A stretch of 64,000 nt of DNA from Bacteroidales bacterium. Its GTDB lineage: Bacteria > Bacteroidota > Bacteroidia > Bacteroidales > P3. Every line of letters begins with the position of its first letter. Position 1 is the stretch's first letter. Below, piece by piece: positions 890 to 42,643 of the stretch. The position numbers were made by a program, and so were the translations under genes. The stretch spans positions 175,179 to 239,178 of the forward strand of contig JAFRTM010000013.1 in the NCBI GenBank assembly GCA_017439185.1, written 5' to 3'. The notes under the pieces are model-generated. The model did no database searches. It was not told the origin of the DNA and saw only the letters and a list, made by a program, of their open reading frames with translations.

Positions 890-1547
890 GTTTTAAGTCT
901 TAAGTTTTGAGTCTTGCTCTGCTCTTGCTCGCAAGAGTAAGACGTCCATTATCGGACCTCACCTTATGTTCACCTTGAGGTGACCTTAATCAATATCGAA
1001 TCTACGTTGGTTAATAGTCCATTAATATTTGGTTAAAGGTTGGTTAATGGTTTTGCTTTAGGCAAAGCAAGGCGTTAGTCGGAAATGTTAAATGTTGGGA
1101 AAGTGTGCTAACATTCCGCTGAGTTGAGGCGTTTTTGAGACTATATAGCAGGAGGCGATGAAAAAAAATTGAAAAAAAGTGTGTCCGAAAAACGGACTTG
1201 AAAGGTTCTATATATGCGAGGGGATTTTTAGGAGAGCGAGAGACGACAGACGCGAGTCTGGCGGACGAGCCGTCGGAGGCTGAGAGGACTTTGACATATC
1301 AGAAAAAGAGGTTGGCGGCAGCCAGTGAGGCTGCCGCCCCGTCGGGGGTGCGTGGCGGGAGAGGACCGTCACGTCCCGGCTGGAAAGGGGAGAAAAAAGA
1401 TTTTGGGATTTCAAAAAAAGTTGTATCTTTGCAAGTGGAAGAAATAATGGGATTAAGTAATAAGTTGCTGAGAGATAAAATGATATATTGGAAATGGGTA
1501 GGAAGTAAAGTGTTTTTGGGATTTATAAAAGGATAGAAAAATATAAA
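890..1547. repeat. Intergenic region with repeat-family copy and hairpin cluster
   Basis: There is no convincing gene in these 658 bases. Positions 971-1002 match 38891-38922 at 29 of 32 positions in the same orientation. A hairpin TTGCTTT/AAAGCAA at 1053-1070 is a reversed copy of a module also found at 38986-39001 and 42418-42435. Positions 1113-1209 are an inverted relative of 38752-38858, sharing GTTTTTGAGACTATATA and AGTGTGTCCGAAAA. Further right are three GC-rich hairpins (1247-1260, 264-274 plus 1000, and a perfect 10-bp stem 1314-1323/1329-1338). A promoter at 1401-1432 reads toward the next remnant gene. A possible frame over 1198-1536 runs through that promoter and is rejected. Confidence 0.7.
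1401..1432 (+). promoter_or_regulatory. Bacteroidota-type promoter
   Basis: TTTTG at 1401-1405 and TATCTTTGC at 1424-1432, 18 bases apart, fit the phylum consensus. It drives the Bro-N remnant at 1548 and perhaps the restriction-modification genes beyond. Confidence 0.7.
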
Positions 1548-37203: not shown

Positions 37204-38538
37204 TTATTTCTTTACGATGACTTTCTTGCTGGTGGCGGTACCGTCGGCCATGCGGAAGTTGAGCATATAGACGCCGTTATTGTAGTTGGCGAAGTCTATG
37301 GTGCTGCGCACTCCGAGGTTACGGAGAGTCTCGACGCGCTGTCCTGCCATGTTGTATATGGCTATTTCCTCCACTGCCGAGGCGCTCTCGATCATAAGTC
37401 TTGCAGCCGTCGGGTTGGGGTAGATCACCACGCCGAGCTGTTCTATCTCGTCGATTCCGACGTAGGGGCTGGCCATCACGGTGACGCTAGTGGTGCGCGA
37501 GCAACCTTCGTTGGTAGCGGCGGTGAGCGACACGTCGGTGTTCTGCTGTACGTTGGTGAGTGTTATGGTGCTGTCGTGGGATGTCTGACCGTTGTAGTTC
37601 CAGGTGAGAGTTGCAGGCTGGTCGCACTCGGCTTTCAGTGTGGTGCTGGCACCGGTGAGTATGTCGAGTTCGCCCACAATAGCCACACTGATGTCGTTCT
37701 TCACGGTGAGGTTGAGGACTATCAGGCTGTCGCAGCCGTAGATGTCCTTACCTGCGCGGAGGGTGTCAACCGAGCTCTCTTCGGAGGAGTAGTTGCCCCA
37801 TACGAATGTGCCGCAGGAGACGGTGTCTCTGGGAACATACTGAGTCTTGTGGACTACGAGGTGGATATTGATCACGCTGTCTCTGCAGGCGCCATTGGCG
37901 GTGATGAGGATGTGGCGGTTGGTGTCGATGGTTTCCTCGGAGAGGATGCGGTTGCCGGTAGCTCCGAAAGCGGCGTAGTTGCAGCCCTCGACGGTGGTGT
38001 CGATGGAGGAGACATCAGGCGTGTTGATGGTGAGGGTCAGCTTGAAGGTGGAGTCGCAGGCGGTAGCCGAGGAAGCGGACACGGTGTCGTAGAAGGTGCC
38101 GTTCTCGGTGTAGAGGGTGCCGCGCCAGCGGAACTGCTTGCACACCGTGGTGTCTATCACGATCTTCGCAGTGTCCATGATTGAGAGGGTGATGGTCACG
38201 GTGCTGTCGCAACCGTTACCGTCGGTGAATGTGTGGGTGTAGGTGCCGTTGGTGGCATATACAGAGTCGCCCCAAGCGTAGGAGCAGCCGGCCTCCACGG
38301 GTTCCGACACGGTTATCGTGGATGAATGATTGACTTTGAGGTCGAGCACATAGAGAGTGTCGCCACTCAGATAGACCACTGCGGTGTCGCGGGTGTAGGT
38401 CTCACCGTTGATCCACTCATAGCTGTCGCATACGGTCACGGGCATTACTTCGTGATTGGTAGCCTTGGTCTGTGCCTTTACCGCCATCGGCATAAGAAAT
38501 GCCACAAGTACTAAGCCAAACAATACTTTTTTCATCAT
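37204..38538 (-). CDS. Secreted repeat protein with type IX sorting domain
   Basis: 444 residues. Signal peptide to about VKAQ at 23. Residues 30-330 contain about five imperfect cysteine-containing repeats of the form VC..Y.W.G..YT..G.Y..T....GCDST..L.L.I, seen in Bacteroidota surface proteins. The last 75 residues (from VVIYPNPTAAR, near 371) are a type A T9SS C-terminal sorting signal, with IYNMAGQRVET, GVYMLNFRM and the basic end SKKVIVKK. The protein should be exported through type IX secretion and attached to or released from the surface. Function otherwise unknown. Confidence 0.88.
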   Translation of the reverse strand: MMKKVLFGLVLVAFLMPMAVKAQTKATNHEVMPVTVCDSYEWINGETYTRDTAVVYLSGDTLYVLDLKVNHSSTITVSEPVEAGCSYAWGDSVYATNGTYTHTFTDGNGCDSTVTITLSIMDTAKIVIDTTVCKQFRWRGTLYTENGTFYDTVSASSATACDSTFKLTLTINTPDVSSIDTTVEGCNYAAFGATGNRILSEETIDTNRHILITANGACRDSVINIHLVVHKTQYVPRDTVSCGTFVWGNYSSEESSVDTLRAGKDIYGCDSLIVLNLTVKNDISVAIVGELDILTGASTTLKAECDQPATLTWNYNGQTSHDSTITLTNVQQNTDVSLTAATNEGCSRTTSVTVMASPYVGIDEIEQLGVVIYPNPTAARLMIESASAVEEIAIYNMAGQRVETLRNLGVRSTIDFANYNNGVYMLNFRMADGTATSKKVIVKK

Positions 38539-38636
38539 CTTGTGCTATTATTTATTACTATTATTATTTACCTTATAAATTGTTTATCAAAATGTTACAG
38601 CGCCAAGTGGCACTTTTGGACTTTTGATATTGGAAA

Positions 38637-38668
38637 GCAAAGATACAAAGTTTTTTTTATCTGCACAA
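38637..38668 (-). promoter_or_regulatory. Promoter of the T9SS-cargo gene
   Basis: On the minus strand, TTG (plus 38666-38668), 20 bases, TATCTTTGC (plus 38637-38645). The leader is about 90 bases. Confidence 0.75.
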
Positions 38669-38751
38669 TTTTTTTTCCAAAAACTTTTATATTTTTTTTA
38701 TTCCTTGTCGCTAAAGGTTGGATTTCAGCAGCCTCCTGGTTTTGTGTTAAT

Positions 38752-39091
38752 AGAACCGATTAAAAGCAGTTTTCGGACACACTTTTCCCATTTTTTTATC
38801 TTTTTTATTTATATAGTCTCAAAAACGCACCAACTCGGCGGAAGGTTAACATTTTTTTCTCCAACCCCAACCTTGCCATATCCTTACCGTCACCTTAATG
38901 TGACCTTAATGAATATCGAATCGCCGTTTCCGAAAAAGCGAGAGCAATGGAAGCTAGCTTTCATTGCCAAGTTAAAGGAAACGTCTTGCTCGTAAGAGCA
39001 AAACCTTTAATCAACTATTAAGAGACCTTTAACCATCCCTTACCAAAATTTTTCAAAAAACCGTGTCTGAAAATCGGCCTTGTCCGGTTCT
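38752..39091. repeat. Intergenic repeat element with inverted ends
   Basis: The 674-base gap between the T9SS gene and the acyltransferase gene contains a 340-base element with related inverted ends: AGAACC at 38752 plus TTTCGGACACAC, and GTGTCTGAAAATCGG at 39063 plus GGTTCT at 39086-39091. The left third is an inverted relative of 1113-1209. Positions 38891-38922 are a direct relative of 971-1002. Positions 38925-39001 carry the two-hairpin module (stem CGTTTCC/GGAAACG and stem TTGCTC/GAGCAA). No gene is contained. Confidence 0.75.
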
Positions 39092-39146
39092 GTTGGCAAA
39101 CGGGCAAAGCAAATCCTCCACTCACGCAATTTATAGCCGCAAATTC

Positions 39147-42288: not shown

Positions 42289-42643
42289 GTTTATAGAGTT
42301 TTTTACGTAAGAGCAAACATAAATCAAACACGAATCAACCACGAATCAACCATGGAGCAACGTTATCGAAAAGTGAGAGCAAAAAAGTTTACTTTTATGC
42401 CGAGCGGAGATAACGTCTTGTTTTGAAAAAAACAAAACCAAGGTGTAACGTCGGTCCGTTTGGTGGAGTCGGATGTGAGATTTTAAGGTTTCGGGGAAGG
42501 GTTGCCGGAGGGGGTTGAAAAGTGGTTGATAACTTTTGTGTAAAGGCGAAAAATTTTGTGTTAAAATATTTTTGTAAGTATCGTATAATCAATGCCTCCA
42601 TAGGAATTTAAGTTTTTTTAACATTTGTAGTATAGGAAAATAT
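42289..42643. repeat. Intergenic region with third copy of the hairpin module
   Basis: There is no gene here. Three tandem 11-base units (AATCAAACACG, AATCAACCACG, AATCAACCATG) occupy 42322-42354. The module follows: CGTTATC 42361-42367 pairs with GATAACG 42409-42415 around an inner stem GCAAAAAAGT/ACTTTTATGC (379-388 and 391-400 of the block 42). Next is TTGTTTT 42418-42424 with AAAACAA 42429-42435. The rpsL promoter lies beyond, at 42644. Confidence 0.7.

Follow-up and report, generated by a model that had tools for sequence, protein, structure and literature searches.

The window, i.e., the whole stretch of 64,000 nucleotides analyzed here, belongs to a Bacteroidales genome of 2.15 Mb in 28 contigs that is 92% complete. 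It carries two main copies of a module made of a long and a short hairpin, at the places where the initial annotation had located them, and a search of the whole window with the covariance model R2 (described below) retrieved both. Copy 1 lies between divergent genes that, according to Pfam, encode a Por-secretion-tail protein (minus strand) and an acyltransferase (plus strand), and it is preceded by GC, not AA. Copy 2 is preceded by AA; its Pfam-annotated neighbors are a SprT-like gene that ends 73 bp upstream and rpsL, located ~315 bp downstream. The features are as follows.

38925..39004, plus strand: copy 1 (R2, 78.7 bits, E = 2e-15; also matched by model R1)
38925..38931, plus strand: 5' arm of the outer stem of copy 1, CGTTTCC
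38944..38967, plus strand: inner hairpin of copy 1, GCAATGGAAGCTAGCTTTCATTGC
38977..38983, plus strand: 3' arm of the outer stem of copy 1, GGAAACG, followed by TC at 38984-38985
38986..39001, plus strand: short hairpin of copy 1, TTGCTC-GTAA-GAGCAA, followed by AAC
42361..42438, plus strand: copy 2 (R2, 76.0 bits, E = 8e-15)
42361..42367, plus strand: 5' arm of the outer stem of copy 2, CGTTATC
42379..42400, plus strand: inner hairpin of copy 2, GCAAAAAAGTTTACTTTTATGC
42409..42415, plus strand: 3' arm of the outer stem of copy 2, GATAACG, followed by TC at 42416-42417
42418..42435, plus strand: short hairpin of copy 2, TTGTTTT...AAAACAA, followed by AAC
1050..1113, minus strand: candidate decayed 3' remnant that retains just the short hairpin and the AAAC tail (9.5 bits), not a supported copy

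The two copies differ by compensating changes, as noted initially, in both the outer stem (CGTTTCC/GGAAACG versus CGTTATC/GATAACG) and the short hairpin (TTGCTC/GAGCAA versus TTGTTTT/AAAACAA). The core coordinates of the module agree with the earlier delimitation; the unit, with its AA tail included, is slightly longer. A reversed third copy had also been proposed at positions 1053-1070, and this did not hold up: it was absent from the R2 matches in the whole window at E ≤ 10, and when only 351 bases of this region were searched with filters off, it scored 9.5 bits (E = 0.062) and the central loop motif was missing. This sequence may at best be a decayed 3' remnant, or else a chance likeness. 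A stretch, TGACCTTAATNAATATCGAATC, is common to positions 905-1000 and 38895-38925, both of which are intergenic, and a short-hairpin fragment lies near 905-945. At positions 38500-39100 and 42290-42480 of the window, as well as at loci L002, L004, L008, L145, and L147, the copies are found inside short degenerate arrays. The array types seen around many copies are ATTAACCAACC, ACCACTGACC, AACTCAAAACTT, and AACTCATAAC, and the arrays run on past both ends of the element.

We aligned 19 copies from the source genome, including window copies 1 and 2 (set A1), assigned a structure, and derived from them the covariance model R1. A second model, R2, was built from 49 sequences (set A4), from which the window copies are absent and in which close kin from the same genome are present; the E-values of both models are approximate. 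Three further sets were compiled, namely, 44 distinct rows retrieved by R1, which come from relatives within the genus except for L086 of genome G055 (A2), 36 distinct rows from the source genome (A3), and 34 rows that R2 found beyond the genus (A5; L086 is also in the R2 seed). A number of features of the element can be derived from these alignments. (i) The unit consists, in this order, of AA, a long hairpin with the internal loop CGAGAGC...GCCGAG, usually TC, a short hairpin, and AA. (ii) In the long hairpin, an outer stem of 6 to 7 bp is followed by an A-rich internal loop, two pairs, the segment CGAG-A-GC facing GC-C-GAG, and the inner hairpin. The facing CGAG/CGAG motif could, we presume, form tandem G-A pairs between Watson-Crick pairs, with one A bulged, and the pair that flanks it covaries, changing from G-C to A-U in 5/49 and 6/34 rows. 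(iii) The stem of the short hairpin mostly comprises 3 to 6 bp, and its loop is often GAA or GCAA. (iv) Units are 62 to 87 nt long, apart from a single nested match of 98 nt. In nested copies, one module holds another; the internal position of the insertion is constant, and the inner stems differ (CCCATTC/GAATGGG and CTCCTTC/GAAGGAG). (v) In sets A3, A2, and A5, respectively, the 5' AA is present in 20/36, 37/44, and 30/34 copies, the TC linker in 33/36, 27/44, and 25/34, and the 3' AA in 34/36, 44/44, and 31/34; all three occur together in only 20/36, 24/44, and 21/34 copies. The 5' end is least regular in the source genome, where 16 of the 36 copies are without AA and GC or AC is also found in its place.

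The fold is conserved while the sequences of its stems turn over. Compared to dinucleotide shuffles, the plus strands of copies 1 and 2 had z-scores of -5.1 and -4.0, respectively, when folded as RNA and of -3.2 and -3.3 when folded as DNA; L086 was the only one of five folded members no more stable than its shuffles (z of -0.7 and -1.1). In the alignments, 97.0% (A3), 93.3% (A2), and 94.3% (A5) of the cells in stem positions were paired, as against 78.6%, 69.3%, and 64.1% in shuffles and, for A5, at most 46.3% in slid controls. The covariation score was 0.547 for A2 (0.161 shuffled and at most 0.095 slid) and 0.658 for A5 (0.171 shuffled and at most 0.111 slid). Since fitting the alignments to the model favors the structure, we also scored all column pairs by the G statistic with average-product correction; like the controls, this statistic ignores phylogeny. 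Fifteen of the 21 scored stem pairs of A5 exceeded all 2,315 background column pairs, and 10/21 of A2 exceeded all 2,166; among the top 25 column pairs, 16 (A5) and 15 (A2) belonged to the structure. In both sets, many stem changes are from U-A to A-U or from G-C to C-G and hence amount to more than simple wobble steps. The arms might stay matched in part through templated correction of quasi-palindromes; however, such correction should also erase the unpaired internal loop, and that loop is among the best-kept parts.

Covariance model searches of the source genome and of related Bacteroidales revealed many further copies in both. R1 produced 54 matches at E ≤ 1 in the source genome, 48 of them at E < 0.01, and blastn with copy 1 plus flanking sequence as the query gave 42 matches at E ≤ 10, of which 18 were below 1e-4. 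The proposal of a dispersed element that is copied and whose structure itself is kept is therefore borne out, by these 48 matches and by covariation far above shuffles and slid controls; the outcome that would have spoken against it, namely, only three loci and an absence of covariation, was not observed. At E ≤ 1e-3, R1 detected the element in 45/80 genomes, including the source genome (41/48 within the genus and 4/32 others), and with the best 60 candidates per genome scored, copy numbers within the genus ranged from 0 to at least 58, the highest being that of G038 (58). In the survey of the order with R2, at least 30/295 genomes, the source genome included, contained matches at E ≤ 1e-4; this survey used stricter filters and scored the best 16 candidates per genome, so that its counts are lower bounds. 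A search for an exact pattern in named GTDB genomes returned 81 stretches, 78 of which were in Bacteroidales or Bacteroidetes records (or their genera), many from rumen metagenome-assembled genomes and with names that include Candidatus Colimorpha merdihippi and bacterium P3. The other three, one each from Alloenteromonas, Caballeronia, and an alphaproteobacterial metagenome-assembled genome, may be due to chance or contamination. The element is thus scattered across gut and rumen Bacteroidales genomes, in a sample of one genome per species. Its sublineages differ between genomes, and some are present as identical dispersed copies; G008, for example, contains four identical copies and one variant in unlike surroundings, several of them inside short degenerate arrays. 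One pattern had no exact match in viral contigs, and one consensus gave no blastn match at E ≤ 1e-5 in phages.

The boundaries of the unit became apparent from the comparison of filled and empty sites within genes. At four genic sites, the insert corresponds precisely to one unit, measures 69, 69, 69, and 78 nt, and is in frame; filled sites read AA-unit-AA, and empty sites contain a single AA. The AA at both ends could reflect either a 2-bp target duplication or the reuse of the target AA. (i) The first site is in an IS5-type transposase gene (DDE_Tnp_1; public relatives are annotated as IS1168 and IS1169), which contains the module in G039 (L066, L212, and L429), in G027 (L184 and L430), and in the records of L225 and L247. 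The site is empty in G347, in G356, and in a copy on contig 17 of the source genome, where the 69 nt are absent and the sequences are otherwise collinear; the flanks of the filled L225 and the empty G356 are identical as far as printed. In G047 (L063), the module is present as well, in a broken copy of the gene. (ii) A second 69-nt site further along the same gene is filled in this L063 copy and is empty in G027, G347, and the L247 record, which read GCCAACAT or GCTAACAT; the corresponding sequence of G039 is GCTGACAT. (iii) In a macrodomain gene, the insert encodes 23 residues between LLRALM and N[IV]WE. The search for this gene had matches in 50/99 genus genomes; from 30 fetched loci, 29 sequences were extracted, of which 5, including that of the source genome, are filled and 24 are empty, 20 further genomes being outside this count. 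The match in G039 spans query residues 3-272, and the alignment of a query from G046 with the solved relative 8rsi_A is likewise interrupted at the insert. (iv) In a gene family that starts with MEQEPILNEHN, one paralogue with a 78-nt module and three without it are located on a single contig of G043; one member matches tRNA_SAD, and the others are without a Pfam match. At L073 and L239, adjoining genes share the leader MEQEPILNEHN...EYPPMHT ahead of different proteins, with or without the module. In addition, queA of another species (L210; Queuosine_synth, E = 1.9e-94) contains an in-frame module without the AA ends. These in-gene cases were found via open frames, and disruptive insertions would therefore be missed; rows L179, L204, L177, and L236, which have the same reading frame, were excluded from the in-gene count. 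Both this in-frame seating and the precise insertable unit lie beyond the reach of the initial annotation. A weaker copy is antisense within an open frame of 1,165 codons around G000:C15:84862 (L384). Adaptation of the whole family to reading frames was considered and rejected, as the length is divisible by three in only 9/36 (A3), 24/44 (A2), and 12/34 (A5) copies. The AAC-GTT frame is open in 20/36, 31/44, and 11/34 copies of the same sets, and only the genus set A2, which includes genic copies, leans to frame compatibility.

The arrangement of neighboring copies also bears on the unit. Among the matches listed in the R1 and R2 surveys, all 12 abutting pairs have the same orientation, and 9 of them overlap by exactly one base of the match; the period is therefore the unit with its AA, as if the AA were shared. 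In G006, four starts are spaced by 67, with the last copy cut by the contig end. Each of the seven clusters of copies within 1.5 kb in the source genome has a single orientation. Close copies of opposite orientation occur in G038 (L150), where a plus copy is located 45 bp from minus copies, and in G321 (L252), with 142 bp between opposite-facing copies. A replication-strand bias was discarded as a feature of the element: it was weak in the source genome (24/39 clusters; Wilcoxon p = 0.04, with p = 0.03-0.04 for orientation by GC skew) and was not reproduced in six relatives (21/48 copies, p = 0.79).

Comparisons of sequences thus far point to a small noncoding mobile element that belongs to a Bacteroidales-wide family and would work like the Rickettsia palindromic elements (RPEs), a reading to which we assign a probability of roughly 0.8. 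It is a discrete unit that sites of otherwise matching sequence either contain or lack to the exact base, and we consider it likely that this mobile unit is recognized by its shape. An enzyme acting in trans would recognize a folded single strand, most simply single-stranded DNA (ssDNA), because AA flanks both ends and the TC linker can face either AA across the base of a hairpin. In IS200/IS605 elements, guide sequences face the cleavage sites in the way proposed here for TC and AA. The enzyme would cut after AA and place the unit behind an AA of the target. Since pairing would be the only demand on the stems, a founder with a newly paired sequence could start a new burst of copies. Intergenic copies are probably for the most part neutral passengers, and the copies in genes that survive selection would be those whose length is a multiple of three and which bring no stop codon into the reading frame of the gene. 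ssDNA appears to us the likelier form of the mobile unit, with a confidence that stays somewhat short of even. More speculatively, a non-Y1 enzyme might read the folded AA-hairpin-TC-hairpin-AA strand, with a single TC addressing both cleavage sites, and insert it at AA; if it is mainly the shape that is read, stem sequences would drift widely and each species would come to have its own sequence version, and those versions with an open frame would repeatedly be spliced into proteins.

The label "REP-like" of the initial annotation fits only if it is taken broadly, for any small repeat with a structure. In a narrower sense, the module would be a REP or REPIN mobilized by a RAYT (TnpA_REP, a Y1 HUH enzyme) that has been lost from the source genome, a loss that would leave the copies stranded. 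Small, structured, and dispersed, the element would suit this origin, as would the inverted close pairs of G038 and G321, and Bacteroidetes RAYTs of subclass 2.6 have, according to an excerpt of PMC6006769, "atypical secondary structures" on their flanks that recur at other places in the genome. Several observations argue against this possibility. (i) No match to PF01797 (Y1) was found at E ≤ 0.1 in the source genome, which is 92% complete, so that the absence could reflect either a loss or a gap in the assembly. (ii) At E ≤ 1e-3, Y1 was absent from 15/48 genus genomes, among them G038 with its 58 copies, and from four of the nine genus genomes with at least 10 copies (G000, G014, G017, and G038). 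(iii) Among the matches listed, 92 loci around Y1 genes contained no supported module, the best E-values being 0.5 to 2; these loci comprise sets of 30 and 33 (all 63 of which were rescanned with R2) and a set of 29, were scanned with R1, R2, or both, and include two genes twice. (iv) The genes that resemble subclass 2.6 by motif (L323, L333, L334, and L162) adjoin a different palindrome, CGGATTGCAAATCCG or a variant of it, which at L162 was read on the downstream side only. (v) The GTAG foot starts no row in any of the five alignments; inside the rows, GTAG is scattered over 2/19, 1/48, 4/42, 2/49, and 6/34 rows of A1 to A5, respectively. Mobilization by a RAYT is thus not supported as a direct explanation, and we regard it as improbable. 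An autonomous version of the element with a gene next to it was also considered and rejected: inspection by eye of the 25 largest clusters among 1,189 open reading frames (ORFs) beside copies disclosed no recurrent mobility gene except the module-carrying IS5-type transposase, and these searches yielded no mobilizing enzyme. As a separate observation, L323, L333, L334, and L162 are RAYT genes with YIHQNP or YIHNNP motifs, for which the CGGATTGCAAATCCG-type palindrome is a candidate cognate REP. L095 contains a Y1 gene of the Y..NQ..HH or a similar kind with multiple copies of GAAAGAAAGGCCCTACGGGCC on its flanks; subclass 1.2, the nearest to this gene, is tabulated without a REP in the excerpted text of PMC6006769.

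Spread through RNA, in which a folded transcript would be copied by a reverse transcriptase and then inserted, has a similarly small probability in our estimation. The lower z-score with RNA than with DNA parameters (-5.1 versus -3.2 for copy 1) would be in keeping with it, as would the loop motif, which is compatible with the tandem sheared G-A pairs that are common in RNA, and the G-U steps between stem states, which RNA tolerates. However, many stem changes are from U-A to A-U or from G-C to C-G, which G-U steps leave unexplained, and both the CGAG loop motif and GAA loops are stable in DNA as well. In a shallow inspection by eye, one representative from each of the 25 largest ORF clusters was read over its first 150 residues, and no reverse transcriptase was recognized.

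Part of the spread does not call for mobility of the module itself. In G232, which belongs to another genus, the module lies within an insertion of ~280 bp, a CGTCATTCCG...CGGAATGACAG unit that is absent in G128 and G321, and in G003 it is part of a GGTAACC-ended repeat with versions that contain one or two modules; some of the spread is therefore due to hitchhiking. These carriers, together with the in-frame modules in the IS5-type transposases of G039, G027, G047, and the L225 and L247 records, could suggest that the module is entirely passive, travels solely as cargo of IS5-type elements and of miniature elements (MITEs) with terminal inverted repeats (TIRs), and is shed as copies by recombination. 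Against such an exclusively passive life, which we consider unlikely, stand the clean gains (69 or 78 nt) by the transposase gene, the macrodomain gene, and the leader genes, which consist of the module alone. Moreover, the flanks of 26 copies of the source genome, inspected by eye, showed no common carrier beyond the short arrays, and the AA ends and tandem periods fit the module's own termini. In G003, loci L137 to L143 contain a GGTAACCTCTAA...TTAGAGGTTACC repeat that encloses either one or two modules; the seven copies printed do not differ in their main module. Beside the module of L258, a repeat of ~145 bp (query 872-1015) matches many places in G128, G232, and G321.

Lastly, the initial annotation had mentioned a functional RNA. 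Copy 2 points in the direction of rpsL; among 29 relatives fetched of 48 matched, the copy of G014 points the opposite way, G013 has a 29-nt fragment on the other side of the gene, and 27 gave no match, so that a copy in the same orientation was found upstream of rpsL, the one site compared, in 0/29. According to a simple longest-ORF caller, copies are located between divergent, convergent, and codirectional genes as well as inside coding genes; a role as transcription terminator or untranslated-region element is not supported because copies also sit between divergent genes. Rfam matched only two tRNAs in the window at the gathering cutoff, and its four matches in seven further loci (E of 0.35 or more) did not fall on the module. 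A conserved structured RNA with a host function, such as an attenuator, terminator, or regulatory hairpin, would account for the strong covariation and the strongly conserved internal-loop motif, but it is very unlikely in view of an rpsL site that is not kept in relatives, the presence of copies in every kind of gene context and in coding genes, copy numbers from 0 to at least 58 within a genus, and the lack of Rfam matches on the elements.

Among known systems, the mobile element proposed here most resembles the RPEs, which are small, dispersed palindromic DNA elements of 105 to 146 bp that lie between genes and have also entered 19 reading frames in frame; the product of the gmk gene that carries one is translated and active (PMC2229807, excerpt). 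The module has the same dual siting, with the intergenic copies of the window on the one hand and the in-frame copies in the macrodomain gene of the source genome, the IS5-type transposase, and queA on the other, and clean in-frame empty sites were found for the IS5-type gene, the macrodomain gene, and the paralogue family. It differs from the RPEs in its phylum, its length of ~65 to 87 nt, its two hairpins, its CGAGAGC...GCCGAG loop, and the AA that is mostly present at both ends, and in its case exact empty sites and order-wide covariation have been shown; the likeness is one of description, and common descent is not claimed. In-frame insertion is also reported for palindromic repeats of Wolbachia (PMC2229807, excerpt). 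Enterobacterial repeats of the RU/ERIC type are likewise small and found inside genes with open frames, according to excerpts of PMC2759123 and PMC2229807; compared by description, they differ in their lengths of 127, 168, and 103 bp and in their enterobacterial hosts.

Several structured repeats share individual traits with the module. In CGTC-tagged REPs, which also occur without a known transposase (Di Nocera et al. 2013; PMC3733652, excerpt), an unpaired CGTC precedes a stem of 8 to 9 bp. Within the genus, the short hairpin of the module similarly follows CGTC, often has a 4-nt loop, and begins with T-A pairs; however, the CG is paired in the outer stem, the tag is mostly lost outside the genus, the stem mostly has 3 to 6 bp, a long hairpin is added, and abutting copies are arranged head to tail, so that the module does not conform to this type. 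GTAG REPs and REPINs with their RAYTs are also structured, dispersed, and probably mobilized in trans (PMC6006769, excerpt), whereas the module has no GTAG foot, and no Y1 gene was found in the source genome or seen adjacent to copies elsewhere. A MITE of Porphyromonas gingivalis is another small Bacteroidales repeat and is set apart by its description, since it holds a minisatellite (PMC4596501, excerpt); a further MITE is that of Cardinium (PMC9769881, excerpt). Among open-license PMC articles on palindromic or small mobile elements of Bacteroidetes or Bacteroidales, whether or not inserted in frame, none of the titles and abstract beginnings listed described the element. With respect to TIR-type MITEs, the arms of the outer stem are not terminal to the unit, and the AA ends could be a 2-bp duplication. 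IS200/IS605-type elements and their nonautonomous derivatives have subterminal hairpins and short ends resembling cleavage sites, and they insert at a short target without a long duplication. The module shares the subterminal hairpins, the short cleavage-site-like ends, and the short target with this general description, and it differs in having no transposase gene, no known guide tetranucleotides, and no reproducible replication-strand bias.

In-frame small palindromic repeats are best known from Rickettsia and have also been reported for Wolbachia and for enterobacterial repeats (PMC2229807 and PMC2759123, excerpts). Gut and rumen Bacteroidales now show a comparable process, in which the sites before and after insertion are exact and the covariation is strong enough to define the active fold. 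Since the element can be specified by its minimal unit, ends, target, and fold, and since identical copies exist, the mover of such elements becomes directly testable. The element also adds a source of peptides of 23 to 26 residues that are grafted into proteins.
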